A stretch of DNA of 64,000 nucleotides from Mycobacterium intracellulare ATCC 13950. Lineage in GTDB: Bacteria > Actinomycetota > Actinomycetes > Mycobacteriales > Mycobacteriaceae. The position numbers and the translations under genes were made by a program. This document shows, piece by piece, positions 6,401-56,162 of the stretch. A model generated the notes under the pieces. That model worked only from the letters and a program-made list of their open reading frames with translations, was not told where the DNA came from and did no database searches. Each line of letters opens with the position of its first letter. Position 1 is the stretch's first letter. Location of the stretch: positions 3,100,001 to 3,164,000 of the forward strand of contig NC_016946.1 in assembly GCF_000277125.1 (NCBI RefSeq). The letters are read 5' to 3'.

Positions 6401-12776
<6,376 letters not shown>

Positions 12777-33464: not shown

Positions 33465-33467
33465 CCA

Positions 33468-34388: not shown

Positions 34389-34535
34389 CTGGCCAGGTTA
34401 TTTGGTTTCGTCAGAGGCAGGCAACGACGGCCCCGGCGGGTGTGTCACAAGTCGCACCTCACCGCCTGATCACGGTGGCGGCACACCGGTGTGGAACCTC
34501 GATAACAGCTGCGGGGACACATCACCGAAATCGTA

Positions 34536-34551
34536 GACAACACTCGTTGTC
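34536..34551. promoter_or_regulatory. Palindromic operator in the cyclase/DUF2236 divergent region
   Basis: GACAAC (34536-34541) and GTTGTC (34546-34551) form a perfect 6-bp inverted repeat with a 4-nt spacer, 38 bp before the DUF2236 start at 34590 and within the 201-bp divergent region with the cyclase. It looks like a dimeric-regulator site; the regulator is unknown. Confidence 0.5.
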
Positions 34552-34589
34552 AAAAGTTATCGTGAGGCCAATCGGTGCAGGAGGCCGCG

Positions 34590-36450: not shown

Positions 36451-36465
36451 CTTCGGTCGGGCCGG

Positions 36466-36861
36466 TTAGGCGGCTTCTCCCGAATCCGAGGGGGCGTTGA
36501 CGTCCTCGGGCAGCGCCGCGCGGGCGATGTCGACCAGCGCGGTGAAGGCGGCCGGGTCCGCGACCGCGATGTCGGCCAGGTTCTTGCGGTCCACCTCCAC
36601 GCCGGCGGCCTTGAGGCCCTGGATCAGCCGGTTGTAGGTGATGTCGTTGGCGCGCGCCGCCGCGTTGATCCGCGAGATCCACAGCTTGCGGAACTCGCCC
36701 TTGCGCGCGCGGCGGTCGCGATAGGCGTACTGCAGCGAATGCAGCTGCTGCTCTTTGGCTTTGCGGTAGAGCCGGGATCGCTGGCCGCGATAGCCCTTCG
36801 AGGCCTTGAGAATGCTGCGCCTCTTCTTGTGGGCGTTGACCGCCCGCTTCACGCGTGCCAT
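36466..36861 (-). CDS. rplT: 50S ribosomal protein L20
   Basis: 131 residues. The basic N-terminus [14 protein letters not shown] and the [18 protein letters not shown] core are diagnostic. It binds 23S rRNA early in 50S assembly and represses its own operon in many bacteria. An acidic C-terminal tail is typical of mycobacteria. Third gene of infC-rpmI-rplT. Confidence 0.98.
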
Positions 36862-36949
36862 TGGATGTTCCTACTCTCGTTCATGCGTAGTGGGTCGATA
36901 AATGGGTTCGCCGTGCCAGCTCGCGATGCGGGTCTGGCCGGCGTGGTGA

Positions 36950-37144
36950 TCAGCCGTTCAGCAGCCGATTGATCCGCTGGGCGTCGTTGGCGGCCACCAC
37001 GGTGCGGCCGTCGAGCCGCCGGGTCCGTTTCGTCGGCTTGTGCTCGAGCAGGTGCCGGCGGTTGGCCTTCTGCCGGACGATCTTGCCGGTTCCGGTGCGC
37101 CGGAAGCGCTTTGACGCCCCGCTATGGGTCTTGGCTTTGGGCAT
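36950..37144 (-). CDS. rpmI: 50S ribosomal protein L35
   Basis: 64 residues, normal length, very basic, with the family N-terminus [14 protein letters not shown] and the [14 protein letters not shown] core. It lies between infC and rplT with a 50-bp gap after infC and an 88-bp gap before rplT. Confidence 0.98.
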
Positions 37145-37194
37145 GTTTCCTCTGGTTCTCGCTCGGTTCTCGTTATTAGGTCAGTTCGACTAGG

Positions 37195-37800
<606 letters not shown>

Positions 37801-41200: not shown

Positions 41201-41614
41201 GACGCCGGGGCGGTGGTGCTGGAGCTGTACGAGCATCTGGTCGAGGACCGGACCGAGGAGCCGACGTTCTATATCGACTTCCCGACGTCGGTGTCGCCAC
41301 TGACCCGCCCGCATCGCAGCGAGCCCGGCGTCGCCGAGCGGTGGGACCTGGTGGCGTGGGGTGTCGAGCTGGCCACCGCCTACAGCGAGCTCACCGATCC
41401 GGTGGAACAGCGTCGCCGCCTGCAGGAGCAGTCGCTGTTGGCCGCGGGTGGGGATCCCGAGGCGATGGAGCTCGACGAAGACTTCCTGCAGGCGATGGAA
41501 TACGCGATGCCGCCCACCGGCGGACTCGGGATGGGCGTCGATCGCCTCGTCATGCTCATAACGGGTCGCAGCATCCGGGAGACGCTGCCGTTCCCGCTGG
41601 CCAAACCCCATTGA
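38261..41614 (+). CDS. lysX: LysX: lysyl-tRNA synthetase fused to membrane lysyltransferase
   Basis: 1117 residues from GTG 38261; the frame extends to GTG 38048 (1188 residues), which resembles the long M. tuberculosis annotation, but the -10 at 38247 favours the shorter form. Order: six membrane segments (within about the first 240 residues), a DUF2156 aminoacyl-phosphatidylglycerol synthase domain (ending near 590), an OB-fold, then a class II LysRS core with [15 protein letters not shown] (motif 2) and [12 protein letters not shown] (motif 3). It charges tRNA-Lys and transfers lysine to phosphatidylglycerol, giving resistance to cationic peptides and contributing to virulence in M. tuberculosis. 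It is divergent from infC. The synthetase part is specialised for lipid modification rather than general translation. Confidence 0.95.
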
Positions 41615-41691
41615 TCGAGGTCAGCAACACTGCGCTCGTAGTGGGCGAACATTAGGCAAACAGGTTCCGGGCCGGTAAACAATAGATCACA

Positions 41692-43170
41692 ATGACTCAC
41701 GTGACAGCCTCGACGAACGGTGCGCCCGCGCAGTTCCTGGCCCTTAGTCACACCTCGCTGATGCATGGCTGGGTGCCGACGACGATCCAGGTGCTGGCCG
41801 CCGTCGTGCTGACGTTGGCGGTCGGGTGGCGGTCGCGTCGCTGGCGCGCGGTGCGGATGCCGGTGGCGGCGCTGAGCGGCGGCGCCGCCGCCTACCTGAC
41901 CCACTGGTACGTCGTCGACCATGGACTCTCCGAGGAGCCGGCGCCGACGGCGCTGTGGGTGTGGATCGCGCTGACGGGCGTGGCGGCGGCGGTGCTGGTG
42001 CTGGGCTGGGGCAGCGCGCGCCGCTGGCGGCGCGGCGCGGGGATGCTGGCCGTGCCGTTGTGCTTGCTGAGCGCGGCGCTGGTGCTCAACCTGTGGGTGG
42101 GCTACTTCCCCACCGTCCAGTCCGCGTGGAGCCAGCTGACGTCGGGCCCGCTGCCCGATCAGACCGACCAGGCGACCGTTACCGCCATGGCCGCCAAGGG
42201 AACCCGGCCACCGCACGGCACCGTGGTGCCCGTCGCGATCCCCTCGGACGGGTCGCACTTCAAACACCGTGGCGAGCTCGTGTACCTGCCGCCCGAATGG
42301 TTCGCCACGTCCCCGCCGCCGCCGTTGCCGACCGTGATGATGATCGGCGGGCAGTTCAACACGCCGGCGGACTGGACCCGTGCGGGCAACGCGGTCAAGA
42401 CGATCGATGACTTCGCGGCCGCGCACGACGGCAAGGCGCCGGTGTTCGTGTTCGTGGACTCCGGCGGCGCCTTCAACAACGACACCGAATGCGTCAACGG
42501 GGTTCGGGGCAACGCCGCCGACCACCTCACCAAAGACGTCGTGCCCTATATGGTTTCGGCGTTCGGTGTCAGCCCGCTGCGGTCCAACTGGGGTGTGGCG
42601 GGCTGGTCCATGGGCGGGACCTGCGCCGTGGACTTGACCGTCATGCATCCCGATATGTTCAGCGCGTTCGTCGACGTCGCCGGCGACTTCTTCCCCAATG
42701 CCGGCAACAAGGCCCAGACCATCACCCGGCTGTTCGGCGGAAACGCCGATGCCTGGGCGGCTTTCGATCCGTCCACGGTGATCACCCGGCATGGGCCGTA
42801 CCGCGACGTCGCCGGCTGGTTCGCGATTTCGTCGGACGGTCCGCCGACGGCGCGCCGGGACATCACATTGACCGACAGCGGCGCCATCCGTCTGGCCGGA
42901 CGCGAGGCGGCCGCCAACCCCGCCAATCAGACCGCGGCCGCCTATTCGCTGTGCGCGCTCGGCCGCGCCAACGGAATCGACTGCGCCGTCGTTCCGCAGC
43001 CCGGCCGGCACGATTGGCCGTTCGCGGACCGCGTGTTCGCCGCCGCGCTGCCCTGGCTGGCCGGAGCGCTGGGCACCCCGGGCATTTCGCGGACGCCGTT
43101 GCCCTCCGCCCCGGCCGCCGGCGCCCCGGTCGTCGTTCCGGCCGAACGTTCCAAGACCGCGATGCGGTAG
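41692..43170 (+). CDS. Membrane-anchored esterase-family (alpha/beta-hydrolase) protein, Rv1639c-type
   Basis: 492 residues. Four hydrophobic helices fill the first 140 residues, then an extracytoplasmic alpha/beta-hydrolase of the putative esterase (PF00756, mycolyltransferase-like) family. The nucleophile elbow is GWSMGGT (Ser within GxSxG). Likely acid and His partners lie later; the His of PGRHDWPFA fits the catalytic position. The C-terminus is Ala/Pro-rich. It follows lysX by 77 bp in the same direction, as in M. tuberculosis. It may act on envelope lipids, but no substrate is known. It precedes the DUF6653 gene by 4 nt. Confidence 0.9.
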   Translation: MTHVTASTNGAPAQFLALSHTSLMHGWVPTTIQVLAAVVLTLAVGWRSRRWRAVRMPVAALSGGAAAYLTHWYVVDHGLSEEPAPTALWVWIALTGVAAAVLVLGWGSARRWRRGAGMLAVPLCLLSAALVLNLWVGYFPTVQSAWSQLTSGPLPDQTDQATVTAMAAKGTRPPHGTVVPVAIPSDGSHFKHRGELVYLPPEWFATSPPPPLPTVMMIGGQFNTPADWTRAGNAVKTIDDFAAAHDGKAPVFVFVDSGGAFNNDTECVNGVRGNAADHLTKDVVPYMVSAFGVSPLRSNWGVAGWSMGGTCAVDLTVMHPDMFSAFVDVAGDFFPNAGNKAQTITRLFGGNADAWAAFDPSTVITRHGPYRDVAGWFAISSDGPPTARRDITLTDSGAIRLAGREAAANPANQTAAAYSLCALGRANGIDCAVVPQPGRHDWPFADRVFAAALPWLAGALGTPGISRTPLPSAPAAGAPVVVPAERSKTAMR

Positions 43171-43174
43171 CTCG

Positions 43175-43594
43175 GTGGTATCCGTTGCGCGCGTTCGGCG
43201 TGCGGTCTTCGCGCGGCACTGCCATCCGTGGAGCGCGTGGAGCCGGTGGGCGAGCACGCCGTTGATCCTGGTGCCGCCGTGGACGCGGCGGTGGAGCCAC
43301 GCGGCGTGGATCGCGCTGTGGCTGGCCGCGAACCCGTTCGTTTTCGGCAAGCCCGCCCATCACCGCGCATGGTCGACGCGGGCGATGCTGGGCGAGGAGC
43401 TGTGGATCAGTCGTCGCCCCCGCGATGCGGCGGCGTTGGTCAGCGCGGCGACGTCGGCCGCCGCGTTGGGCGCGGTGCTCGCCGCCCGCCGCCACCGGCT
43501 GCGGCCGGCGCTGATCGCGGTCGCCGTGCAGATGGCGCTGACCCTGGTGTACTGGCAGCAGATGGTCCGGTATCTCGAGCGGCGGGCGCGGTAG
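43175..43594 (+). CDS. DUF6653-like small membrane protein
   Basis: 139 residues, GTG start 4 nt after the esterase stop, so probably co-transcribed. The start region HPWSAWSRWASTPLILVPPW, followed by a Trp-rich hydrophobic helix, a central AWSTRAMLGEELWI motif and two further hydrophobic stretches, resembles DUF6653 proteins, which have no known function. Codon use fits a real high-GC gene. Possible helper of the esterase; not provable here. Confidence 0.72.
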   Translation: MVSVARVRRAVFARHCHPWSAWSRWASTPLILVPPWTRRWSHAAWIALWLAANPFVFGKPAHHRAWSTRAMLGEELWISRRPRDAAALVSAATSAAALGAVLAARRHRLRPALIAVAVQMALTLVYWQQMVRYLERRAR

Positions 43595-43664
43595 CCTCAC
43601 GGGACCTTGTGGGCGAGAACACCGTTCGTCGCCGAGGACGGCAGCCGCCACGTAAGCGCGGTGA

Positions 43665-43701
43665 CGATACGCAGGTATGGTTATCCGATACCTCCGTATC
43701 G
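43665..43701. promoter_or_regulatory. Large dyad operator upstream of the TetR gene
   Basis: CGATAC-GC-AGGTAT (43665-43678) and ATACCT-CC-GTATCG (43688-43701) pair in 13 of 14 positions around a 9-nt centre. It ends 7 nt before ATG 43709. Size and symmetry fit a site for two TetR dimers and autoregulation. It also argues that the TetR coding region starts after it. Confidence 0.75.
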
Positions 43702-43708
43702 TGAGGCG

Positions 43709-44395
43709 ATGCGGGTGTATTGTCCGGCCGTGGGACCCACCCGGCTGTTTCCGTACGACCCGCCCCCTCCAGCAGACCCTTCGCCCAAGGAGCGGATTCG
43801 CGACGCCGCGCTGAGCTGCTTTGCCGTTCGCGGCATCGCCGCCACGACGTTGCGCGCGGTCGCCGAGACCGCGGACGTTTCGATTGGGCTGGTACAGCAC
43901 CACTTTCGCACCAAGGCCGCGCTGAGCGCCGCCGTCGATCAATACGTCCTGCAAACGGTGAGTGAGGCATTGGAACCCGCTACGCTGCCCGAACCGCCGT
44001 CCGACAATCTCAACGAGGCAGGGCGGCGGCTGACCGCGCTGATGGTCGAACGTCCCGATGTGATGTCCTACCTCGGGCGTGCGCTCGCCGAGGGTGGCGC
44101 ATTGGGTTCGGTCATCTTCACCGGTCTGGTGGGTATCAGCGCGGGGCAGGGTGATCAGTTCGGGCAACAGGGCAAGCTTCGGCCCGACCTCGATCCCGAT
44201 TGGGGGGTGCTCAACCCGCTCATCCTGCGCATTGGCGCCATCATTCTGCATCCCTACATCGAGCTTTACCTGGGTGAGTCGTTCTTCAGCGCGCCACAGC
44301 TGCGACGGTGGGACGCCGCGGTCACGAGCCTGATACGGCGCGGGCAATTCGCCGAGGAAACCGAGCTGCAGGACAAGGACGTCATCGCCCGGTGA
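43709..44395 (+). CDS. TetR-family transcriptional regulator (Rv1353c-like)
   Basis: 228 residues from ATG 43709; the open frame reaches back to 43607 but would then include the dyad operator. The HTH (about 25-70) reads ERIRDAALSCFAVRGIAATT, then AETADVSIGLVQHHF. The C-terminal ligand domain is helical (about 80-220). The FPYDPP start and association with Rv1354c- and Rv1355c-type genes point to Rv1353c. It likely represses itself and the ThiF-nitroreductase gene that begins 61 bp downstream on the same strand. The ligand is unknown; an acyl compound made by the cluster is a reasonable guess. Confidence 0.88.
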   Translation: MRVYCPAVGPTRLFPYDPPPPADPSPKERIRDAALSCFAVRGIAATTLRAVAETADVSIGLVQHHFRTKAALSAAVDQYVLQTVSEALEPATLPEPPSDNLNEAGRRLTALMVERPDVMSYLGRALAEGGALGSVIFTGLVGISAGQGDQFGQQGKLRPDLDPDWGVLNPLILRIGAIILHPYIELYLGESFFSAPQLRRWDAAVTSLIRRGQFAEETELQDKDVIAR

Positions 44396-44440
44396 GCGGC
44401 CAAACGCAGCGTTAAGACGGCCGGCACGCCGGTCAGGTGC

Positions 44441-44446
44441 TATACA
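44441..44446 (+). promoter_or_regulatory. -10 element for the ThiF-nitroreductase gene
   Basis: TATACA ends 9 nt before ATG 44456, giving a very short or leaderless transcript. A GC-rich hairpin-like stretch (CCGGCACGCCGG, about 44421-44432) lies just upstream and could end the TetR transcript or separate the two units. Confidence 0.5.
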
Positions 44447-44455
44447 CGAAACACC

Positions 44456-46588
44456 ATGGACGAGCGCACGGTAACCGCGCATAGCGCACAAATTCTCGAC
44501 CCCGAAGAGCCCGGCGATCGTCTGGTACTGGACCGACTTCGAACCGATCCCACCGTCGAGGTCGTCGACCGGCTCGACGCGCAGCTGGCCAATCTGCGCG
44601 GCCTCCACCCGCCACCGGATTCGACCCTCCTCGGCGAGGGAACCCGGTGGGCGTACTACCCGTGGCGGCGCGCCGTCGTTGCGGTGTTGGGGCCGCGGGG
44701 GTTTCGGGCGTTACGACTTGATCGCAACAGGAACAACATCACCATTGCGGAACAGGCCAGGCTCAGCTCGCTGACCATTGGCGTCGCCGGCCTGAGCGTC
44801 GGGCATGTCATCGCGCACACCCTGGCGGTCCAGGGATTGTGTGGCCGGCTTCGCCTGGCGGATTTCGATCATTTGGAACTATCGAATCTGAATCGGGTGC
44901 CGGCCACTGTGTTCGACCTCGGGTTGAACAAAGCTCAGGTGGCGGCGCGCAGGATCGCCGAGCTCGATCCCTACCTGGCGGTGGATGTGCTCGACACCGG
45001 AATCACCGCAGACACCATCGATGCGTTCTTGGATGGACTGGACATCGCCGTCGAAGAATGCGATTCGCTCGACATGAAGGTCGCCTTGCGGCTGGCGGCC
45101 CGTGACAGGCGTATCCCCGTGTTGATGGCGACCAGCGACCGGGGGCGGGTCGATGTTGAACGCTTCGATCAACATCCCGAACGCCCGATCATGCACGGAT
45201 TGCTGGACGGGCTCGACGTCGAGCTGGTGGCAGGCATGAGTACCCGGGACAAGCTCCCTCACATGCTGCGTTACGACGAAGCCGAGCACATCTCGCCGCG
45301 CACCGCCGCATCGCTCATCGAGATCGACCGGTCGCTGTCGACGTGGCCGCAGCTGGCATCCGATGTCATTGTGGGCGCCTCGGCCCTGGCCGAGGCCGTC
45401 CGCAGAATCGGACTGGGCGAACAGCTTCGATCCGGCCGGTGCCGCATCGACACAGGCTGGGCGCTCGACCAGCTGCGCGAGGTCGACGCGGCCCAGCATC
45501 GCCCTGCGCGTGACAACGACCAGGGAGACGACCCGGCGGCCCCCGCGGTCGACGACACGATTGTCGCCGCCGCCATGCGCGCCCCCTCGGGCGGAAACAG
45601 TCAGCCGTGGCGCATCGACGCGCAACCGACCGAGCTCACCATAAGCATTGCCACAGAACATACTTCGACGATGGACGTGGGCTTCCGCGGCAGCGCCGTC
45701 GCGGTGGGCGCGGCGCTGTACAACGTCAGAATCGCCGCCGCCGCCCGCGGGGTGCTCGGCCCGGTGACCGTATCCGAAGACGGCGCCGGGTCTCCGCTGC
45801 GGGCCACCATGCACTTTGGAACCGGCAGCGACCCGGCCCTGGCCGATCTCTATGAACCGATGATCGTGCGGGAGACCAACCGGCATCGCGGCACACCTCA
45901 ACCGCTCGACGATCAGACGACCAAGTTACTCACCGTCACGGCCGAGCGGGAGGGCGCACGCCTGCACCTGCTCACCGGGCGAGACGAGCTTTCGCGGGCC
46001 GCAACGATTTTCGGCGCGGCCGACCGCATCCGGTACTTGACGCCGCATCTGCACGCGGAGATGGTCTCGGAACTGCGCTGGCCCGGAGACCCCGACCCCG
46101 ACACCGGTATCGACGTGCGCTCGCTCGAACTCGACGCCAGCGACTTGGCGCTGATGGATATCGTGCGCCGGGCCGACGTCATGGCTTATCTTGCGGAATG
46201 GGACGCCGGCAGCGCGCTGGGCGACGGGATGCGCGACGAAGTCCTCGCCGGCTCCGCCCTGGCCGTGCTCACCGTGACCGGGGGGCGCCTCCGTGACTAC
46301 GCCCGCGGCGGGTCGGCGGTCGAGGCGGTATGGATCGTTGCCCAGCGCGAAGGCCTCGCCGTCAGGCCGCTGTCGCCGGTCTTTCTGCATGCGCGGAATG
46401 CTGCTGATCTCAATGAGTTATCGGCCGCTTTCGGCGACGAATTAGCCCGATTACAAGACGGATTTGCGCGCCTGATCGCGACCGATCCCGAGGAATCGAT
46501 CGTGCTGGTCTTGCGCTTGGCCTCCGCGCCGCCACCGTCGGTGTCCAGTCGCCGCAGCCCGAGCCGGGTCCGTTCGGGGCGCCCGTGA
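44456..46588 (+). CDS. ThiF (E1-like)-nitroreductase fusion protein, Rv1355c/MoeY-type
   Basis: 710 residues in two enzyme halves. The N-terminal half (about 100-330) is an E1/ThiF adenylating fold: GVAGLSVG loop at 109-116, Asp-rich strand ADFDHLELSNLNR with the ATP-binding Arg147, and a Cys202 in VEECDSLDM. The CxxC zinc pairs of MoeB/ThiF are missing. The C-terminal half (about 365-690) is an FMN nitroreductase, RAPSGGNSQPWR at 375-386. The M. tuberculosis homologue was named MoeY, but molybdopterin work is unproven. An ATP-activating domain joined to an FMN oxidoreductase recalls azole-forming cyclodehydratase/dehydrogenase pairs, though no YcaO protein or precursor peptide is nearby. It probably activates a carboxylate and then oxidises the product. 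Inference. Confidence 0.88.
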   Translation: MDERTVTAHSAQILDPEEPGDRLVLDRLRTDPTVEVVDRLDAQLANLRGLHPPPDSTLLGEGTRWAYYPWRRAVVAVLGPRGFRALRLDRNRNNITIAEQARLSSLTIGVAGLSVGHVIAHTLAVQGLCGRLRLADFDHLELSNLNRVPATVFDLGLNKAQVAARRIAELDPYLAVDVLDTGITADTIDAFLDGLDIAVEECDSLDMKVALRLAARDRRIPVLMATSDRGRVDVERFDQHPERPIMHGLLDGLDVELVAGMSTRDKLPHMLRYDEAEHISPRTAASLIEIDRSLSTWPQLASDVIVGASALAEAVRRIGLGEQLRSGRCRIDTGWALDQLREVDAAQHRPARDNDQGDDPAAPAVDDTIVAAAMRAPSGGNSQPWRIDAQPTELTISIATEHTSTMDVGFRGSAVAVGAALYNVRIAAAARGVLGPVTVSEDGAGSPLRATMHFGTGSDPALADLYEPMIVRETNRHRGTPQPLDDQTTKLLTVTAEREGARLHLLTGRDELSRAATIFGAADRIRYLTPHLHAEMVSELRWPGDPDPDTGIDVRSLELDASDLALMDIVRRADVMAYLAEWDAGSALGDGMRDEVLAGSALAVLTVTGGRLRDYARGGSAVEAVWIVAQREGLAVRPLSPVFLHARNAADLNELSAAFGDELARLQDGFARLIATDPEESIVLVLRLASAPPPSVSSRRSPSRVRSGRP

Positions 46589-46628
46589 TGCGCCCGTCGT
46601 GCGACGAGCGCGCCGGGGCCATCGGACC

Positions 46629-47498
46629 TCAGAACGGTTTCGCCGTGAATCCCCATCGCAACAAAGCCGACTCGCGGCGGGCTTGACGACTCAGCCGAGG
46701 GTCCCGCGCGCCGGTCAGCGCGCTCGGTCCGCCGCGCGCCCCGTACATCCAGTACGCCTGCAGGTAGGGCACCGGTGTCGAATGACCGCGGTGCATTGCT
46801 TGCAGACCCGCTGCGGCAAGCTCATTCGACAGTTCCGCGATGGTGAACGCCGCCGCCTCGCTCGCAATGGCGTCTTGGCGCAGGACGGCCGGCGAGTCGG
46901 GGTCGGCGATCGCCAGCATGCTGGGGGCGGCCGCCGGGTCCCGGAGTCGCTGAAAATCGGAAATCCACACTGCGGCCCCACTGCGGCGTTGGATCGCTTC
47001 GATCTGTCGAAGGGCGCCGCGCAAGGTGTCGAAATCGGGTAGCTGATGCAAGGTCCACATGCACGAGACGGCGTCCCACGGGGCCGTTGAAACCCGCTCC
47101 GGCAACGCGGTGATGTCCTCCCGACGCAGTTCGACACGTTCTCCGATCCCTTCGGCGTCGAACAGCGCCCGCGCCGTGGACAGCATGTTGGGGGCGAGAT
47201 CGACGGCTGTGGCCCGAACGTCGGGTCGTCGGCGCAGGACGGCGCTCAACGCACGACCGGAGCCGACGCCGAGATCCAGCAGGCGGCCGCCTGGAGGCAG
47301 CAGCGCATCAAGCGCGCGAGCGCACAAGTCGTACACCGCGCACATGCCGGGGTTGGATGCGCCACCGGTGTGGAACTGTGCGACGGACTCCGGATCGTCC
47401 ACCACCATCGGCTCAGGAATGCGCTCCCGCCCCGGCGGATGCGACCGCTCACGCAAAACGATCCCAGGCATTCGCCACAGCGGCCGAATTCTCTTCAC
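46629..47498 (-). CDS. Class I SAM-dependent methyltransferase
   Basis: 289 residues from GTG 47498, preceded by GAAAGG; the frame extends to 47579 without support. The Rossmann motif LLDLGVGSGRAL (near residue 75) and acidic AVDLAPNML bind SAM; later SCMWTLHQLPD fits motif IV/V. The C-terminus has a Tyr/Trp-rich segment (PYLQAYWMYGARGG) that may recognise the substrate. It is convergent with the ThiF-nitroreductase gene (40-bp gap) and divergent from the P450, sharing a 246-bp promoter region. It probably methylates an intermediate of this cluster, but no substrate can be read. Confidence 0.85.
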   Translation of the reverse strand: MKRIRPLWRMPGIVLRERSHPPGRERIPEPMVVDDPESVAQFHTGGASNPGMCAVYDLCARALDALLPPGGRLLDLGVGSGRALSAVLRRRPDVRATAVDLAPNMLSTARALFDAEGIGERVELRREDITALPERVSTAPWDAVSCMWTLHQLPDFDTLRGALRQIEAIQRRSGAAVWISDFQRLRDPAAAPSMLAIADPDSPAVLRQDAIASEAAAFTIAELSNELAAAGLQAMHRGHSTPVPYLQAYWMYGARGGPSALTGARDPRLSRQARRESALLRWGFTAKPF

Positions 47499-47744
47499 CC
47501 TCAACCTTTCATGGGGTCCGCATGATCGATTTCTCGTCAGGCTCTGGCGGCAGTCAGCTACCCGGCCGAAGTGTCGCAAATGATTATTAACCTGTCCGCG
47601 CAGTCTGCACCGGCGTCCCGTTGAATTTCGCTGCGTCGAAACGGACGTCCTGGAATACTTGTCCGGTCAGCGGGGGCCGGCAAGCTTTCGGCCTGCGCGG
47701 TCGTTCGACCGGCGTAGGCAACAGCATTTCCGCAGGAGGTAGGC

Positions 47745-49115
47745 GTGGTTCAGGCCCTTGCAAGTGACGGCATCGAATGCCTGCCCCTGCCGCCGGTGAA
47801 TCCGATGCCTTACCGTCAGCGCCTCGCGGCGGTACGGGAATTCAGCACGGGAACCGAACGGCTGCGTGACGCCGGCGGGCGGGTGACGTCGTTCAAGTTA
47901 GGGCCGCGATGGCTGATGCCCCCGATGGTGTTGGCGACGTCTCCGGAGGCCATCCGCGACATCCTCAGCACCAAAGACGATTCCGTGGACAAGACCACCC
48001 CGGTCTTCGACCAAGTGCGCCGCGTCATCGGCGCCAGCCTCACCGATCTTCCCTTCGAGCAATGGAAGCCACGCCGGCGCACCCTACAGCCGGTGTTCAC
48101 CAAGCAGCGGGTGAGCGAGTTCGGCGGCCACATGGAGCAGGCGGCGCAATCGGTGAGCGAAAGCTGGCACGAGGACGCCCTGATCGATTTGGACGCCGAA
48201 TGCCGCACGATCACCTTGCGCGCGCTGGGCCGATCGGTGCTCGGGCTCGACCTGGAACAACGGGCCGACGAGGTCGTCGAGCCACTGCGAATCGCGTTGG
48301 CCTACGCGGTCAGGCGCGCGACGCGCCCACTCCGTGCGCCGCGCTGGTTGCCCACACCCGCGCGTCATCGCGCGCGAGCGGCGAGCGCCAAACTTCACGC
48401 GCTGACACGGGAGATCCTGCGGGACTGTCGCGCCGATCCGACACGAGTCGCGCCCCTGGTCCATGCCCTGCTCGCCGCCGAGGATCCAGAAACCGGAAAA
48501 CGGTTGTCCGATGACGAGATTTGCGACGAGCTCGTCATGTTCCTCTTCGCCGGCCACGACACCACGACGACCGCGTTGACGTATGCGCTGTGGTCTCTGG
48601 GACACCACACCGATTGCCAGAACCGCGTGGCCGCGGAAGTCGCGGCCCTGCCGGATCGGCCGCTGACGTCCGACGACATTCCACAGCTCGGCTACACGGT
48701 GCAGGTCATACGGGAATCGTTGCGCCTGTGCCCCCCGGCGCCTACGGGGACACGCATGGCATCCCGCGACGTCCAAGTCGGCGGCTACCGGGTGCCCAAG
48801 GGCACGATGCTCATCGTGGGGCGAATGGCCGTACAACGCGACCCGCAGCTTTGGGACGACCCGCTTCGATTCGACCCGGAACGATTCAGCCCGGAGAACT
48901 TCAAGGCTCTCGATCGGTGGCAATACGTGCCCTTCGGCGGCGGCCCCCGCTCGTGCATCGGCGACCATTTCGCCATGCTCGAAGTCACACTCGCCTTGGC
49001 GACACTCATCCGGGGAGTCGAAATTCGCTCACTCGACGACGAATTTCCGCTCGCGTTGCACTTCACCATGATCGCCGGCGGTCCGATCCGCGCGCGCGTC
49101 CGACCGCGCCGCTAA
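47745..49115 (+). CDS. Cytochrome P450 monooxygenase
   Basis: 456 residues, soluble type. The I-helix oxygen-activation motif AGHDTT is at 269-274, ExxR at 324-327 (ESLR) and the heme-ligand Cys404 in FGGGPRSCIG. AGGAGG lies 5 nt before GTG 47745. The sequence resembles fatty-acid or terpenoid hydroxylase P450s (long, with the PERF-like RFDPERFSPENF segment). It does not look like CYP139, which neighbours pks11 in M. tuberculosis, and I cannot assign a CYP family. No ferredoxin or reductase gene is nearby, so it must use general electron carriers. Expected to hydroxylate the acyl or terpenoid part of the cluster product. Confidence 0.93.
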   Translation: MVQALASDGIECLPLPPVNPMPYRQRLAAVREFSTGTERLRDAGGRVTSFKLGPRWLMPPMVLATSPEAIRDILSTKDDSVDKTTPVFDQVRRVIGASLTDLPFEQWKPRRRTLQPVFTKQRVSEFGGHMEQAAQSVSESWHEDALIDLDAECRTITLRALGRSVLGLDLEQRADEVVEPLRIALAYAVRRATRPLRAPRWLPTPARHRARAASAKLHALTREILRDCRADPTRVAPLVHALLAAEDPETGKRLSDDEICDELVMFLFAGHDTTTTALTYALWSLGHHTDCQNRVAAEVAALPDRPLTSDDIPQLGYTVQVIRESLRLCPPAPTGTRMASRDVQVGGYRVPKGTMLIVGRMAVQRDPQLWDDPLRFDPERFSPENFKALDRWQYVPFGGGPRSCIGDHFAMLEVTLALATLIRGVEIRSLDDEFPLALHFTMIAGGPIRARVRPRR

Positions 49116-49241
49116 CCCAGCCCGCCGCGCCTTCCCCGTCGCTACCGAGTCCACGCGACCCCGATCACACTCGGGCGTCAACGTGAGCGAATCATTGCTA
49201 GACGCACTAGGCAATGCCAAACGCGGCGCACCGGTTACCGC

Positions 49242-49247
49242 TACCGT
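49242..49247 (+). promoter_or_regulatory. -10 element for the GGDEF-EAL gene
   Basis: TACCGT ends 7 nt before ATG 49255, consistent with a leaderless transcript. It supports ATG 49255 over GTG 49183 as the start. Confidence 0.5.
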
Positions 49248-49254
49248 TAGGGCA

Positions 49255-51120
49255 ATGTCGGGCACACTGGACCACCTGGTCACCGCTGCCGCCGCCGAGT
49301 TGATGGCGGCCACCGCGGCGGACTCCGCCTCAATCAGCGAACGCGTGCTCGGCAACCTGGTTCGCGACCTGGGGGTGGACTTCAGCTTCCTGCGCCACAA
49401 CGATCACACCATCCGCGCGACCATCCTCATCGCCGAATTCCCGCCGCGTAACGCCGACCCCGACCCGATCGGGTTGGTGTATTTCGCCGACGCCGACTCC
49501 ATCTTCGCGCGCACCGAACACCTCAAGGTGCCCGAGGTGGTCCGCCCCGAGCCGGAGAACGCCGACTATCAGAACCGCATCGAAGCGGGCACCGGAGTTC
49601 CCGCCGTCTCGCTGGCCGCCGTTCCGCTGCTGTCCGGCGACGTCACCACCGGCACACTCGCCTTCGGCAAACTCGGAGACCGCGAATGGCTACCCGAAGA
49701 ACTCAATGCGCTACAGGCGATCGCCGCGCTTTTTGCGCAGCTGCAAGCCCGCGTCGTCGCCGAACAGCAAATTCACTACCTCGCCGAGCACGATGAACTC
49801 ACCGGGCTGCTGAACCGAAGGGCGCTCATCGCACACCTCGACGACCGGCTGGCGAAGGGACAGCCCGGCCCGGTGTCGGTCGTGTTCCTCGCCATCGACC
49901 GCTTCAAGGTCATCAACAGTCGCCTCGGCCAAGACGCCGGCGACCGATTCATCGAGTCCTTCGCCGCGCTACTACGTGAGGCCACCCGCGTTCCCTCCGT
50001 CATCGCCCGCTTCGGCGGCGACGAGTTCGGCGTCGTGCCGTCCGCGGCCATGGACGTCGAGGCCGCCGAAGCGTTCGCACACTCATTGCACGGTCGGGTT
50101 CACCAACAGATCCCCATCGACGGCGAAATGCTCAGTCGCACCGTAAGTATCGGCGTCGCGGCAGGCCTACCCGGGGACGAGACCACGTCAGACCTGCTAC
50201 GGCGGGTCGACCAGGCCACCCGGTCGGCCAAGGCCTCCGGCGGCAACAACGTCGCAACCTTCCGCCCGGAGATGTCTACAACGGACATGATCCGCAACGA
50301 CATCGAGCTGCATCTGGAAGGGATGATCGAGGGCGGTGGCGGTGCGCTGGTCCTCCACTACCTTCCGGAATTCGACATGCGTACCGGCGAGATTCTCGGC
50401 ACCGAGGCGCTAATCCGTTGGCAACACCCAACTCTGGGCCTGTTGATGCCTGATTCGTTCATCCAGGTCGTGGAATCGATCAACCTCGGCGCCAAGCTCG
50501 GCCGCCTCGTCATGCGCTCCGCGTGTGCGCAATTCGGACTATGGCGCTCGCACGGTGTCGGCAAGGGCACGGTGCTGCGAATCAACGTATCTCCCGTGCA
50601 GCTCGTCACGGCCGGTATCGTTGACACGGTCGCCGCCACCCTCGACGAGTTCGGTCTTGATCCCAGCACCGTATGTCTGGAGATCACCGAAAGCGTTGTG
50701 GTCCAAGACATCGACGCGACACGTCAGACGTTGTTCGGGTTGAAGGATGTTGGCGTACAGATCGCGATCGATGACTTCGGCACCGGCTACAGCGTGTTGA
50801 CATATCTGAAATCTCTTCCCGTCGATTCACTCAAGATCGACAAGGGTTTCGTCCAGAATCTCGACACCAACGCCGGAGATCTGGCGATCGTGCGCTCGAC
50901 GATGGCCCTGGCCGACGCCTTCGGGCTCGATGTCGTGGCCGAAGGGGTGGAAACCGTGGCCGCGGCCGAAAGGCTGCTCAGCCTGGGCTGCCATCGCGCG
51001 CAAGGCTTTTTGCTGTCCCGCCCCATCGACAGCGCGGCGATGGAATCACTCCTGGCCAAACGCGTCATCCCGATGAACTTCTCCAGCACGCGGTTTCCTG
51101 GAACGGGAAACGCGGTTTAG
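49255..51120 (+). CDS. GAF-GGDEF-EAL bifunctional c-di-GMP enzyme (Rv1354c-type)
   Basis: 621 residues from ATG 49255, near the 623 of Rv1354c; GTG 49183 would add 24 unsupported residues. GAF sensor domain (about 10-175), GGDEF domain with intact RFGGDEF, and EAL domain with TEALIRW, RINVS, LEITES, DDFGTGYS, LKIDKGF and AEGVET all present, so both synthesis and hydrolysis of c-di-GMP are plausible. The inhibitory I-site before GGDEF reads RVPS, not RxxD, so product inhibition may be weak. It lies 139 bp after the P450 on the same strand. In M. tuberculosis the homologue is also next to Rv1355c, so the partnership with the ThiF-nitroreductase type is conserved although the locus has moved. 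Confidence 0.93.
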   Translation: MSGTLDHLVTAAAAELMAATAADSASISERVLGNLVRDLGVDFSFLRHNDHTIRATILIAEFPPRNADPDPIGLVYFADADSIFARTEHLKVPEVVRPEPENADYQNRIEAGTGVPAVSLAAVPLLSGDVTTGTLAFGKLGDREWLPEELNALQAIAALFAQLQARVVAEQQIHYLAEHDELTGLLNRRALIAHLDDRLAKGQPGPVSVVFLAIDRFKVINSRLGQDAGDRFIESFAALLREATRVPSVIARFGGDEFGVVPSAAMDVEAAEAFAHSLHGRVHQQIPIDGEMLSRTVSIGVAAGLPGDETTSDLLRRVDQATRSAKASGGNNVATFRPEMSTTDMIRNDIELHLEGMIEGGGGALVLHYLPEFDMRTGEILGTEALIRWQHPTLGLLMPDSFIQVVESINLGAKLGRLVMRSACAQFGLWRSHGVGKGTVLRINVSPVQLVTAGIVDTVAATLDEFGLDPSTVCLEITESVVVQDIDATRQTLFGLKDVGVQIAIDDFGTGYSVLTYLKSLPVDSLKIDKGFVQNLDTNAGDLAIVRSTMALADAFGLDVVAEGVETVAAAERLLSLGCHRAQGFLLSRPIDSAAMESLLAKRVIPMNFSSTRFPGTGNAV

Positions 51121-51157
51121 ATCCGCCAGAAAGTGCACACGGGAGACGGTCGGGCAC

Positions 51158-51844
51158 TCAGGCGCGACGTTGGAACAGGTAGTAATACGCCGGGGACTTC
51201 CTGTCGTCGAGTTCCTGCTCGTCGCCGCTGAATAACAGCGTCCAGCCGGGAGTGAAACGTCGTTCGATCTCGGGGTGATCGATCCCCGGCACGCCGAACC
51301 GGCCGCCGGGAGGGAACGCGGCGATGAACAGCCGCGCGTCGGGCGCCGCCACGGCGCTGACTTCCCGGACGTACGCCTCACGGTCGCCGCCACTCATGTT
51401 GTGGATGCAACCGTTGTCGACGATCAACCGGAAGCCAGTCCCGATCCCGGACTGACTCAGCTGCGTCACATCGGCACGAACAAAATTGATGGAGACATCG
51501 GCTTTGCCCGCTTTCGCCCGCGCCTTTTCAAGCGGTTTCGCGACGTAATCGACCCCGGTGACCTGCCAGCCCTGCTGGGCGAGATAGATGGCGCAGTCCC
51601 CGGTGCCGCATCCCACGTCGAGAGCCCGCCCCTTGGGCAGCGCCGGCGTGTCACCAGTTCCCTCGACCAGATCCCGCAGCCCCTGCCCGATCGGGTGTCC
51701 TTCCCACGGCGTGAAGCCGACGCGGTAGAAGAACCGAAATCGCGTGTGTCGAGATGCCATAGCCGCAATGATGGCATCCGCGGCAACCGGCCCGACACCA
51801 CCTTCCCGGTTTACCACTTTCGCGGCCAACCGGGACCGTGCCAT
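51158..51844 (-). CDS. SAM-dependent methyltransferase (small-molecule/thiopurine-like)
   Basis: 228 residues from ATG 51844, which overlaps the stop of the upstream acyltransferase gene (TGATG), with GGAAG upstream; ATG 51760 (200 residues, starting ASRHTRFRFFYR) is the alternative and gives the more usual family N-terminus. SAM motif ALDVGCGTGDCAIYLAQQGW, then GVDYV and a DNGCIHN segment. Related proteins methylate small thiol, selenium or tellurium compounds or modify small metabolites. Translational coupling to the GNAT-fold gene suggests they act on the same molecule. Convergent with the GGDEF-EAL gene (37-bp gap). Confidence 0.85.
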   Translation of the reverse strand: MARSRLAAKVVNREGGVGPVAADAIIAAMASRHTRFRFFYRVGFTPWEGHPIGQGLRDLVEGTGDTPALPKGRALDVGCGTGDCAIYLAQQGWQVTGVDYVAKPLEKARAKAGKADVSINFVRADVTQLSQSGIGTGFRLIVDNGCIHNMSGGDREAYVREVSAVAAPDARLFIAAFPPGGRFGVPGIDHPEIERRFTPGWTLLFSGDEQELDDRKSPAYYYLFQRRA

Positions 51845-52578
51845 CAACACGTGATTTCTTCCAATGCCGAAAAGCGGCTGAGGATTTCGGCGTTCTCGGC
51901 GCACATCAGCTTGAATTGCGCCGGCTCGGCATGAGCGGAAAGGGTGCGACGGTCCCACCACATCACTTTGGTTCGATAGTTTTCATTCGGATAGGCGGCC
52001 GCCGGAACGCGTGCGGCCACGACGCCCCCGGAGGATTGCCACTGCTCCAGCACATGGGCCGCCGCGGTAGCCATCACAAATTGAGCACCCAGCAACGTCA
52101 TCGTCGGCAGGGCCGTGCGGGCCAATACTCGGGAAAGCGACTGATTGCCATATTCGCGGGAATTGGCCCAGGCGCTTTTCACCTCCACGACGCCGAACGG
52201 CAGCCGGTTGGCGATCATATGACGCAGCAGGGAAAGGCCGGGATTGCCTTTCCACTCCACCAGAGCGTGGGAGTCCTCGGGCGAGCGCAACGGCCCCACG
52301 ACGCGCGTGCCCCCGACCACGCGCCCCTCCGGGTCAAGGGCCGCGAAGAACAGCGCCGTGTCCGCGCCGTCCGAAATCGCGTCCACGTCGAGCACCCAAT
52401 CCAAGCCGTGCCTGCGATAGCTGTGCGCTGCGCCTTCCAGGTATTGATTCCACAGATCGGGCTCCCCCCTCGGCGTGGACGCGACGACCCAGCATCCCGT
52501 CGCGTGATCGCGCCAGCCGGACCGAACGTCCGGCCGCGGGGCATCAAACACTCTTGCTTCGAGCTGAGCCGCTTCCAT
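51844..52578 (-). CDS. GNAT-fold acyltransferase, LuxI/FeeM-like (possible N-acyl amino acid or autoinducer synthase)
   Basis: 244 residues from ATG 52578 with GGTGGAGG upstream; an in-frame start at 52689 lies in an AT-rich leader and is rejected. Residues 50-95 follow the acyl-homoserine-lactone/acyl-amino-acid synthase pattern: SYRRHGLDW (Arg and Trp), spaced Asp residues (DVDAISDGAD), FFAALDPEG, then VVGGTRVVGPL matching the family's GxxRLLPT. Later VVEVKSAWANS and TLLGAQFVMA match the core strand and helix of acyl-ACP-dependent GNATs. The fit is by pattern only. If right, it would join an acyl chain to an amino acid or similar amine. First gene of a two-gene unit with the coupled methyltransferase. 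Confidence 0.6.
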   Translation of the reverse strand: MEAAQLEARVFDAPRPDVRSGWRDHATGCWVVASTPRGEPDLWNQYLEGAAHSYRRHGLDWVLDVDAISDGADTALFFAALDPEGRVVGGTRVVGPLRSPEDSHALVEWKGNPGLSLLRHMIANRLPFGVVEVKSAWANSREYGNQSLSRVLARTALPTMTLLGAQFVMATAAAHVLEQWQSSGGVVAARVPAAAYPNENYRTKVMWWDRRTLSAHAEPAQFKLMCAENAEILSRFSALEEITC

Positions 52579-52772
52579 GGGTTTGCCTCCACCTATTAAC
52601 CGTGCGAACCGAACTATTTCGTGAACGCGTCTTGAATCGTTTCTCAATTCGACTCGCGACAAATAACCAAGGAGATTGTGACATAACAAGCTAATGGCGG
52701 CTGTGCAGCGCGGGCGGAAAATATCAACGCGGGCTTGTTAGGCGCCGCACGGGATTTGGCGAAAACGTCAGC

Positions 52773-52784
52773 TACTGTTCAGTA
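52773..52784. promoter_or_regulatory. Palindrome TACTG-TT-CAGTA, candidate regulator site
   Basis: Perfect 5-bp arms with a 2-nt centre (52773-52777 and 52780-52784) in the divergent region. The shape is common for TetR- or GntR-type operators. Its sequence differs from the dyad before the TetR gene, so a different regulator is likely. Confidence 0.45.
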
Positions 52785-52903
52785 ACACGCGACCGCGGCC
52801 GAATTATGGTTAACGCCGGTCGGGGCTAGAGCACGGGAAATGCGAACCGCAGCGACTCCAAGAACTGACAACGGATGTTGCCGATTTCGACCGCGGCGCG
52901 CAG

Positions 52904-52909
52904 TACCGT
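52904..52909 (+). promoter_or_regulatory. -10 element for leaderless mRNA of the small coiled-coil gene
   Basis: TACCGT ends 6 nt before ATG 52916. No ribosome site lies before the ATG, fitting a leaderless transcript. Confidence 0.5.
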
Positions 52910-52915
52910 GGCGGC

Positions 52916-53161
52916 ATGCCCGACGAATCCAGCACTGAAGGTGCCGCCGACGCCGGATACGACGACGCCGGTACGCCGACGTTCGAGTCCGTGCGCGACA
53001 AGATCGAGGCCCGGTACGCGACGGCACAGGGCTCGGCCGAACTCGACGCGGAGTCACCCGAGGGACGATCGGTCGAGGCCGAGTACGACGAGCGCCGTCG
53101 CGCGGCGGCCGAGCGGCTGGCCCAGATCCGCGAGTCGATGCGGCGCGACGACCAGCCGTGA
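52916..53161 (+). CDS. Small charged coiled-coil protein, conserved hypothetical
   Basis: 81 residues with a flexible acidic N-terminus, then a helix-forming charged region (ESVRDKIEARYATAQG, then ERRRAAAERLAQIRESM). The sequence type is familiar from proteins beside uvrA in mycobacteria, sometimes annotated as PspA-like, but no function is established. Convergent with uvrA (82-bp gap). The leaderless -10 supports the start. Confidence 0.78.
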   Translation: MPDESSTEGAADAGYDDAGTPTFESVRDKIEARYATAQGSAELDAESPEGRSVEAEYDERRRAAAERLAQIRESMRRDDQP

Positions 53162-53243
53162 GCGACGCCGGGCGTGTGTCCCCTCAGTGCTCGCCAGATG
53201 CCTTGCCCGACAACGTCATTCGGGCCTTGTCGCGAAAGCGGGC

Positions 53244-56162
53244 TCAGGCGGTGGCTTTACGGCGGCGGGCCGGCCGGCGCGTCGGAGCGCTGGCCGGCGG
53301 CGCGCTGCGCCCGATGACCTCGGCGAGGAACTTCCCGGTGTAACTCTCCGGCACCGCCGCGACGTCCTCCGGAGTGCCTTCCGCGACAACGGTTCCGCCC
53401 TCAGCGCCGCCTTCCGGCCCCATGTCGACGATCCAGTCCGAGGTCTTGATGACGTCCAGGTTGTGTTCGATGACGATGACCGTATTGCCTTTGTCGACAA
53501 GGCCGTTGATGACCTTGAGCAACTTGCGGATGTCGTCGAAATGCAGACCCGTGGTCGGCTCGTCGAGGATGTACACGGTGCGCCCGGTGGATCGCTTTTG
53601 CAGTTCGGCGGCCAGTTTCACGCGCTGCGCCTCGCCGCCGGACAGCGTCGGCGCCGGCTGGCCGAGCCGCACATAACCGAGACCGACGTCGACCAGGGTG
53701 CGCAGATAGCGGTGGATGCCGGTGATCGGCTCGAAGAACTCCGCCGCCTCCTCGATGGACATGTCCAGCACCTCGGAGATGGTCTTGCCCTTGTAGTGCA
53801 CCTCGAGGGTTTCCCGGTTGTAGCGGGCCCCCTGACACACCTCGCACGGCACATACACGTCGGGCAGGAAGTTCATCTCGATCTTGATGGTGCCGTCACC
53901 GGTGCACGCTTCGCAGCGGCCGCCCTTGACGTTGAACGAGAACCGGCCCGGTTGGTAGCCACGGACTTTGGCCTCGGTGGTGGCCGCGAACAGGGTGCGG
54001 ATCTTGTCGAACACGCCGGTGTAGGTGGCCGGGTTCGACCGCGGCGTGCGGCCGATCGGCGACTGATCCACCCGCACCAGCTTGTCCAGGTGGTCCAGCC
54101 CGGTGACCCGAGTGTGGCGGCCGGGGACCAGCCTTGCGCCGTTGAGCCGGTTGGCCAGCACCGCCGCGAGGATGTCGTTGACCAGAGTCGACTTGCCGGA
54201 ACCGGACACGCCGGTCACCGACGTGAGCACGCCGAGCGGGAACGAGACGTCGATGCCGCGCAGGTTGTGCTCGCGGGCGCCGACGACGGTGAGCTGACGG
54301 CGCCGGTCGACGGGACGCCGGATCGCCGGCATCTCGATGCTTTCCTTGCCCGACAGGTAGGCGCCCGTGATCGACTCCTTGTTGGCCAGCAGCTCGCTGT
54401 AGGTGCCGCTGTGCACGATCTGGCCGCCGTGCTCACCGGCCCGCGGGCCGATGTCGACGATCCAGTCGGCGTGCGCGATGGTGTCCTCGTCATGCTCGAC
54501 GACGATCAGCGTGTTGCCCAAACCCCTTAGCCGAGTGAGGGTTTCGATGAGGCGACGGTTGTCGCGCTGATGCAGCCCGATGGACGGCTCGTCGAGCACG
54601 TACAGCACGCCCACCAGCCCGGACCCGATCTGGGTGGCCAGCCGAATGCGTTGCGCCTCACCACCGGACAGCGTGGCGGCCGCGCGGGACAGCGACAGGT
54701 ATTCGAGACCGACGTCGAGCAAAAATCCCAGCCGCGACTGGATTTCCTTGAGCACCTGCCCGGCGATCGCCTGCTCGCGCGGCCCCAGGGTGAGGGTGTT
54801 GAGGAAGTCGGCGCAATCGGAGATCGACAGCTCGCAGACCTCGGCGATGGACTTCTTGCCGCGATTGCCCGCGCTCAGCGACACCGCCAGGATCTCCGGC
54901 TTGAGCCGGGTCCCCTCGCAGACCGGGCAGGGCACGTCACGCATGAAGCCCTCGTAGCGCTCCTTCATCTGCTCGGATTCGGTCTGCGCCATCTTGCGCT
55001 GCAAAAACGCCAGCACGCCCTCGAAATCGGCGTAATAGGAGCGGGTCCGGCCGTACCGGTTGCGGTAGCGCACGTGCACCTGGTGGTCGGAGCCCTCGAG
55101 GATCGCCTTGCGGGCCTTGGCGGGCAGTTTGCGCCACGGGGTGTCGACGTCGAAGCCCAGCTCGTCCCCCAGCCCGGCCATCATCCGGGTGAAGTACTCC
55201 GCGGTGTGGCCCGTCGACCACGGCGCCACCGCACCCTCGGCCAGGGTGCGCTCGGGGTCGGGCACCACCAGGTCGGGGTCGACCTCCTTGCGGATGCCCA
55301 GGCCGCTGCATTCCGGGCAGGCGCCGTACGGCGAGTTGAACGAAAACGACCGCGGCTCCAGGTCGTCGACGGCCAGCGCGTGCCCGTTCGGGCAGGCCAG
55401 CTTCTCGGAGAACCGCTGCTCGCGGTTGTGGGCGTCGTGCTCGTGATCGACGAACTCCAGCACCACGATGCCGTCGGCCAGGTTCAGCGCGGTCTCCACC
55501 GAGTCGGTGAGCCGCTGCTTGGCGCTGGCCTTCACGGTGAGCCGGTCCACCACGACCTCGATGTCGTGCTTCTCCTGCTTCTTCAGCTTCGGCGGATCGG
55601 TCAGCGGATGCACGACGCCGTCGACCCGGACCCGGCTGTAGCCCTGGGCGTTGAGCTTGTCGAAGAGGTCGGCGAACTCGCCCTTGCGGGTGCGCACCAC
55701 CGGCGCGAGCACCTGAAACCGGGTGCCCTCCGGCATCGCCAGCACCTGGTCGACGATTTGCTGGGGCGTCTGGCGGGCGATGCGCTCGCCACACACCGGG
55801 CAGTGCGGGGTGCCGGCGCGGGCGTACAGCAGCCGCAGGTAGTCGTAGACCTCGGTGATGGTGCCGACCGTCGATCGCGGGTTGCGGTTGGTGGACTTCT
55901 GGTCGATCGACACCGCAGGCGATAGGCCCTCGATGAAGTCGACGTCCGGCTTGTCCATCTGCCCGAGGAACTGGCGGGCGTAGGCCGACAGCGACTCCAC
56001 GTAACGCCGCTGCCCCTCGGCGAAGATCGTGTCGAAGGCCAGCGACGATTTGCCCGAACCCGACAGCCCGGTGAAGACGATCAGCGCGTCGCGGGGCAGG
56101 TCGAGGTCGACGCCGCGCAGGTTGTGCTCGCGGGCGCCCTTGATGATCAGACGGTCAGCCAA
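53244..56162 (-). CDS. uvrA: Excinuclease ABC subunit A
   Basis: 972 residues, normal length. Two ABC ATPase modules, each with Walker A ([10 protein letters not shown] near 33; [10 protein letters not shown] near 650) and signature LSGGEAQR, plus Cys zinc modules (CPNGHA/CPECSG and [17 protein letters not shown]). UvrA scans DNA for lesions and loads UvrB in nucleotide excision repair. The promoter element at 56245-56267 is of the DNA-damage type, leaving a leader of about 75 nt. The partner uvrB is 4.7 kb away in the same orientation. Confidence 0.98.

Follow-up and report, generated by a model that had tools for sequence, protein, structure and literature searches.

Which pathway is encoded by the seven intact genes that fill the slot from lysX–esterase–DUF6653 to uvrA in Mycobacterium intracellulare ATCC 13950? 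The genes lie in a stretch of 64,000 nucleotides (NC_016946.1, positions 3,100,001 to 3,164,000 of the forward strand) from the single-contig genome of 5,402,402 bp, hereafter the window, whose own numbering is used below. The original prediction, made from the DNA itself, presented them as an undescribed cluster for an N-acyl amino acid-like signal tied to cyclic diguanylate (c-di-GMP). We consider it likely that they form a tryptazolone locus in which a cytochrome P450 and two methyltransferases (MT1 and MT2) tailor the product, the pathway is coupled to c-di-GMP, and TrzS and the P450, with or without MT1, have been exchanged between species. With dcpL as a label coined here for the GAF-GGDEF-EAL gene, the seven genes are as follows.

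43730..44395, plus strand: TetR-family regulator (PF00440, 3.8e-12), likely start GTG 43730
44456..46588, plus strand: trzS homolog, a ThiF cyclase fused to a flavin oxidase, 710 aa (NF005901, 1017.7 bits)
46629..47411, minus strand: MT1, an S-adenosylmethionine (SAM) methyltransferase (PF13649, 2.8e-13), start possibly further upstream
47745..49115, plus strand: cytochrome P450 of the trz-linked clade (PF00067, 6.5e-69)
49183..51120, plus strand: dcpL, Rv1354c-like GAF-GGDEF-EAL c-di-GMP enzyme (domain matches, motifs intact)
51158..51760, minus strand: MT2, a SAM methyltransferase (PF13649, 2.1e-17), 83 bp downstream of trzA
51844..52578, minus strand: trzA homolog, a FeeM/LuxI-fold N-acyltransferase, 244 aa (homology, context, fold)

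The core of the locus is a known pathway. The acyl-transfer enzyme and the E1-like domain fused to a flavin mononucleotide (FMN) oxidoreductase, first read as an N-acyl amino acid pathway, are indeed homologs of TrzA and TrzS. The cluster can no longer be called undescribed, as the core pair of M. tuberculosis, Rv1356c (TrzA) and Rv1355c (TrzS), has already been reported to yield N-acyl tryptazolones: TrzA converts acyl-CoA and L-tryptophan into acyl-tryptophan (acyl-Trp), and TrzS then closes the ring at the expense of ATP and desaturates it using O2 (PMC12856293). According to the same account, three homologs tested in vivo gave tryptophan-derived oxazolones only, phenylalanine was also acylated by TrzA in vitro, acyl-Trp built up in the supernatants of homologous systems, and tryptazolones were enriched in cells. 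Its authors had likewise raised the adjacency of the c-di-GMP gene in M. tuberculosis and a possible signalling role, both of which the original prediction put forward afresh (PMC12856293). The partnership of the ThiF–nitroreductase fusion with GGDEF-EAL that it recognized in M. tuberculosis has the acyltransferase Rv1356c as a further, overlooked partner.

The assignment of both core proteins is supported by homology. The model NF005901, ‘Rv1355c family protein’, spans the whole TrzS (residues 5–704), and its putative catalytic residues, D203 in the ThiF half and R526 in the oxidase half, are invariant in all 38 aligned TrzS sequences; they were equated with D217 and R540, the residues tested in M. 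smegmatis TrzS, through a constant offset of 14 and motifs, not by direct alignment. The protein first labelled GNAT is regarded as a TrzA homolog because it is 45–59% identical to the trzS-adjacent proteins of canonical loci (L088–L093, L096, L098, L106 and L107), shares the FeeM/LasI (LuxI) fold (10–21% identity in structural alignments) and is 81% and 71% identical to the TrzA that heads a plain trzA–trzS–dcpL operon in the same lysX–uvrA slot of genomes G061 and G097. It gave no Pfam or NCBIfam match at E 0.1, and its best PDB sequence match had an E of 0.72; a LuxI-type acyl-homoserine lactone (AHL) synthase was therefore rejected as a candidate, the fold being compatible and the sequence falling outside the family.

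When the lists were compared by hand across 248 sampled genomes of the genus, TrzA and TrzS each occurred in 142, and 139 had both. TrzA stood by itself in G070 (73% complete), G161 and G172 (a weak match), and TrzS by itself in G015, G158 and G237. Named relatives with a similar TrzA are M. colombiense, M. vulneris, M. arosiense, M. interjectum, M. paraense and M. palustre. A second TrzS was sought in the window genome and none was found, apart from one weak 74-residue match in the nitroreductase region.

Around this core, linkage suggests that the P450 and MT1 belong to the trz pathway. Among the best 90 matches to the P450, window included, 49 of the 53 with at least 63% identity (a cut chosen after the matches had been viewed) have trzS or trzA no more than 3 kb away, compared with 3 of the 37 below it. 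Two of the exceptions, G070 and G163, are on short contigs and cannot be judged; TetR adjoins the P450 in G163. In G064 and G023 the P450 stands beside TrzA, with the TrzS match 3.9 Mb off or on another contig. The window P450 retains what we take to be the haem-loop and I-helix motifs. Solved structures were uninformative as to its substrate, the best match being 7wzl, a ‘putative cytochrome P450’, followed by 3dbg, presumably CYP170A1. In a family-wide sample, the P450 was matched at E≤1e-130 in 20 of 251 genomes, of which the four that belong to other genera reach 47–55% identity, and two Rhodococcus plasmids carry a P450 at 59% identity with no TrzS match; as candidates for a trz-linked P450 outside the genus these four genomes and two plasmids were rejected, all lying below the trz-linked identity range.

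At E≤1e-40, 18 of the 248 genomes have an MT1 match, and every one lies 183–338 bp from a trz P450 (distances taken by hand); 17 are divergent from the P450, and in G202 the two share a strand. Since the occurrence of MT1 is nested within that of the P450, MT1 is expected to act on the P450 product. All 13 MT2 matches of at least 81% identity, window included, are within ~1.5 kb of trzA or the P450. The case for MT2 is nevertheless weaker than that for the P450 and MT1, because paralogs exist elsewhere, one of them in the window genome itself (71% identical, C1:838614-839219, L153), where the 19 kb read held no other cluster-protein match. The closest solved methyltransferase structures are weak guides only.

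What is new is this predicted P450/methyltransferase branch, the core pathway being already known. Neither the branch nor the cassette exchange described below was found in the literature searched, where subscription papers mostly lay outside; within it, no paper united oxazolone, P450, N-acyl, mycobacteria and nitroreductase, and nothing related joined nitroreductase, E1-like, ThiF and LuxI. The main text of PMC12856293 makes no mention of P450, cytochrome, methyltransferase, TetR or avium.

In other species the same genes form compact operons. In G012 (L146), trzA (6577-7335), the P450 (7332-8762), trzS (8759-10879) and dcpL (10883-12736) lie on one strand and are joined, at longest-frame starts, by two 4-bp overlaps and a 3-bp gap. 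The order trzA–P450–trzS–dcpL on one strand recurs in G166 and G041, and G202 carries trzA–MT1–P450–trzS–dcpL on one strand, where no gap exceeds 105 bp. In the window, strand and spacing suggest the units tetR–trzS (plus, 60 bp apart), MT1 (minus), P450–dcpL (plus, 67 bp) and trzA–MT2 (minus, 83 bp).

The c-di-GMP enzyme, as originally proposed, is a frequent neighbour: of the 41 trz loci read, window included, 33 yielded a dcpL homolog, and in L103 and L104 dcpL adjoins TrzA although TrzS and the P450 are located elsewhere. The window dcpL has an N-terminal GAF domain and intact GGDEF and EAL motifs. The M. tuberculosis counterpart Rv1354c both makes and degrades c-di-GMP, and Rv1354c and its M. 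smegmatis homolog have been tied to long-term survival (PMC2994820). As separate observations, TrzA adjoins DcpL in the slot of L120 (M. alsense) without TrzS, and L075, L076, L077 and L079 contain an extra stretch between MT2 and TrzA with partial similarity (35–43%) to the GGDEF-EAL protein.

Comparison of the lysX–uvrA slot across genomes revealed three layouts: type A, with MT1 and its own P450 (P450-A); type B, with trzA–P450–MT2 on one strand, TrzS-B at 66–69% and P450-B at 67–68% identity to the window; and type C, a plain trzA–trzS–dcpL. Type A comprises the window, G118, G134, G240, G017 and G051 (whose contig ends before TetR), type B comprises G046, G131, G233, G247, G201, G058 and G048 (in pieces), and type C comprises G061 and G097. 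By uvrA, G046 and G131 are the nearest to the window in the sample (99% protein identity), yet they are type B, with TrzA at 93–94% and TrzS at 67–68% identity; G118 is farther by uvrA (97%), yet it is type A, with TrzS at 87% and TrzA at 82%. The six type A and seven type B sequences each form one starred clade in the TrzS tree, and types A and B, six each, form one clade apiece (99*) in the P450 tree, whereas types A, B and C are mixed inside a single clade (100*) in the TrzA tree. The uvrA DNA tree, in which only 30% of columns are filled for G048, also mixes the types, requiring 7 changes, with 169 of 200 shuffles as low. TrzA thus follows the flanking uvrA tree, while dissimilar versions of TrzS–P450–(MT1) are scattered over close relatives, and the add-on set appears to have been swapped repeatedly between related species.

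The seven-gene set itself is real, as originally observed, and its genes are linked beyond chance; the expectation that all seven would co-occur in other genomes was borne out in part. Among 34 named loci, nine hold all seven genes, nine the type B set without MT1 (one TrzA being cut by a contig end), five are type C and the other 11 are incomplete, cut by contig ends or differently arranged; the named loci overlap partly with the G-labelled genomes, and records of or near the window genome may be missing from them. In the same slot of L121 (M. lepraemurium), TrzS and DcpL each match in two pieces, TrzA is kept and no P450, MT1 or MT2 match is present at the locus, which looks decayed. In L071 and L111, the type B locus of M. 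colombiense, the TetR match is split into two adjoining pieces. The DUF6653 gene (window 43175-43594) shifts across the cluster, lying by the esterase in some species and between trzA and uvrA in others.

Part of the add-on set is also plasmid-borne. Four mycobacterial plasmids carry TrzS homologs of 65–69% identity, namely those of M. dioxanotrophicus (152,685 bp, typed mobilizable) and M. fortuitum (220,108 bp) and those of Mycolicibacterium spp. TY66 and TY81. The P450 accompanies TrzS on each of them, and TetR adjoins the two on the three inspected; on the TY66 plasmid the P450 is at 33325-34662 and TrzS at 35407-37449. None of these four plasmids has a TrzA match, the plasmid search with TrzA having matched seven records (six Rhodococcus, one Nocardia), and the plasmid module would presumably draw its acyl amino acid from chromosomal TrzA. 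With a best identity of 69%, plasmid TrzS is too distant to be the source of the window cassette. On the M. fortuitum plasmid the TrzS match (CP089609.1:112224-114191, L160) has no gene listed beneath it; the plasmid gene table is incomplete, so an unlisted or a broken gene is possible. Phage carriage of TrzS was rejected, two records each giving one 28% ThiF-level match at 19% coverage.

In the region upstream of tetR, two putative regulatory elements stand out.

43664..43702, no strand assigned: inverted repeat of 39 bp, 15-nt arms with one mismatch and a 9-nt spacer, predicted TetR operator
43718..43723, plus strand: TATTGT, likely -10 box of a leaderless or nearly leaderless tetR transcript

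The repeat ends 27 bp before GTG 43730, and TetR probably represses tetR–trzS through it. Of 18 aligned sequences, the window among them, 16 retain TATTGT, while relatives preserve the symmetry of the repeat only in part. No second copy of the repeat occurs in the window, and the pattern was copied from the site itself, so shuffles give no test. TetR stands beside the P450 or TrzS in many loci read. A gene of the dienelactone hydrolase family (L159:4936-5700) also recurs in many P450–TrzS loci, beside TetR in L076, L078, L085–L087, L100–L102, L105 and L157; it has no match in the window at E≤1e-10, and the enzyme could open the oxazolone ring. A tandem repeat search returned only one short array, outside the cluster.

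Taken as a pathway, the locus would operate in six steps. TrzA would use acyl-CoA to acylate L-tryptophan. Within TrzS, the ThiF half would form the oxazolone ring through ATP-dependent activation of the carboxylate, and the FMN half would desaturate the product with O2. The P450 would then oxidise the acyl chain or the indole, MT1 would methylate the oxygen introduced by the P450, and MT2 would add a second methyl group. The first three steps are in print for homologs and are proposed here from homology, context and conserved catalytic residues; the last three are proposed from gene linkage alone. The GAF-GGDEF-EAL enzyme would couple the pathway to c-di-GMP. TrzA would stay in the lysX–uvrA slot while TrzS–P450–(MT1) is exchanged between species, plausibly via plasmids, and close relatives would therefore make differently decorated oxazolones.

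Several observations weigh against this reading. The window genes are split over both strands in at least four groups, and no metabolite has been shown from P450-bearing trz loci; M. tuberculosis itself showed no detectable tryptazolones (PMC12856293). G014 and G052 carry P450s at 63% identity but no trz gene in the 16 kb read, five of the nine plasmid records that match the P450 have no TrzS match, and MT2 paralogs (at most 75% identity) lie away from trz. Exchange is drawn from quick trees with Shimodaira–Hasegawa-like approximate likelihood-ratio test (SH-aLRT) support only and six to seven rows per type. The close relative L109 (Mycobacterium sp. WUMAC-067; uvrA 99%, TrzA 94%) shares type A with the window (TrzS 92%, P450 97%), so the exchange predates their split and the swap is not private to the window. 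The repeat half-site is no commoner elsewhere in the window than chance, and on this count a shared TetR half-site at other cluster promoters was rejected; TetR control of other cluster genes is therefore unsupported. Finally, position 637 of TrzS, which corresponds by offset only to Q651 in the oxidase pocket of M. smegmatis TrzS, is Arg in all six type A sequences, Gln in 27 of 38 and His in 5 of 38, and type A TrzS may accordingly take a substrate other than plain N-acyl-Trp, such as a modified one. In M. smegmatis, Q651A cuts but does not abolish product (PMC12856293), and published work does not make this Gln a hallmark of the pathway.

This residue bears on a rather doubtful alternative, namely that type A TrzS, P450 and MT1 use another acyl amino acid, or that the P450 acts before ring closure, such that the final compound is not a tryptazolone. 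R637 is joined by five further residues that are fixed in and unique to type A among the 38 rows, plasmids carry TrzS and P450 without TrzA, and the P450 precedes trzS in the G012 operon. However, the closest grouping of the window TrzA is with TrzAs from this slot whose partner is a canonical TrzS, and the homologs tested in vivo gave only tryptophan-derived oxazolones despite the acylation of phenylalanine in vitro.

Equally unlikely on its own, but compatible with a tailored tryptazolone and overlapping with it in probability, is a diffusible signal of the N-acyl amino acid type, made under the control of c-di-GMP. The LuxI/FeeM fold, the c-di-GMP gene inside the same operon in G012 and G202, and the acyl-Trp in supernatants, for which signalling was raised by the authors (PMC12856293), all fit such a signal. 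Against it, tryptazolones themselves are enriched in cells, Rv1354c and its M. smegmatis homolog are linked to long-term survival, no receptor gene turned up, although no search aimed at one was made, and an Rfam search of 41500-54000 gave no match up to E 1, hence no known c-di-GMP riboswitch or other catalogued RNA.

That this is an ordinary trzAS locus whose P450 and methyltransferases are neighbours with unrelated functions is improbable: canonical loci without them exist (L074, L081, L088–L091, L106 and L107), MT2 has paralogs elsewhere and two trz-clade P450s stand alone, but the linkage of the P450 (49 of 53) and MT1 (18 of 18), the overlapping trzA–P450–trzS–dcpL operon and the five-gene operon with MT1 argue otherwise.

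A broader and still speculative scheme can be tentatively proposed, in which TrzA in a fixed slot supplies a common acyl-Trp and exchangeable, partly plasmid-borne TetR–TrzS–P450–(methyltransferase) modules would convert it to oxazolones whose decoration differs by species and which would report to c-di-GMP or be read through it. Such a plug-in arrangement, if true, would constitute a chemical dialect system in mycobacteria, a group for which we know of no established quorum signal. The analysis adds a predicted P450/methyltransferase branch, with the P450, MT1, MT2 and TetR as candidate genes, and the G012 and G202 operons offer a ready-made tailored pathway for expression. Its apparent movement between species and its presence on plasmids speak for a role in ecology and not in housekeeping. 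The papers on mycobacterial oxazolones that were found appeared in 2023 and 2025, and their authors leave open what the compounds do (PMC12856293).

Among known systems, FeeM and the LuxI-type AHL synthases share the fold of the window TrzA but have no significant sequence match to it, and the window partner is a protein of the oxazolone cyclase family. The sister pathway TyzACB (PMC10404671), encoded by the tyrazolone cluster tyzACB (Rv2336–Rv2338c), and OxzAB of Pseudoalteromonas rubra perform the same three chemical steps, OxzB also being a ThiF–oxidase fusion; they differ in using Tyr/Phe as substrates, and TyzB is not fused to TyzC (PMC10404671, PMC12856293). The clusters for stieleriacine and related N-acyl dehydrotyrosines combine genes for an acyltransferase, a ThiF protein and a nitroreductase with a nearby methyltransferase gene, but they are tyrosine-based and not mycobacterial, and a P450 goes unmentioned in the main text of PMC12479983. 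With Rv1354c and MSDGC-1 the window dcpL has in common the GAF-GGDEF-EAL architecture, intact motifs and the trz locus setting, whereas it lies downstream of the P450 and not directly of trzS. With the trzAS pathway (Rv1356c–Rv1355c; M. smegmatis, R. jostii RHA1) the window shares the FeeM-like N-acyltransferase, the ThiF–flavin oxidase fusion and the GGDEF-EAL neighbour; in contrast, its trzA is ~5.3 kb from trzS on the opposite strand, and a P450, two methyltransferases and TetR have been added.

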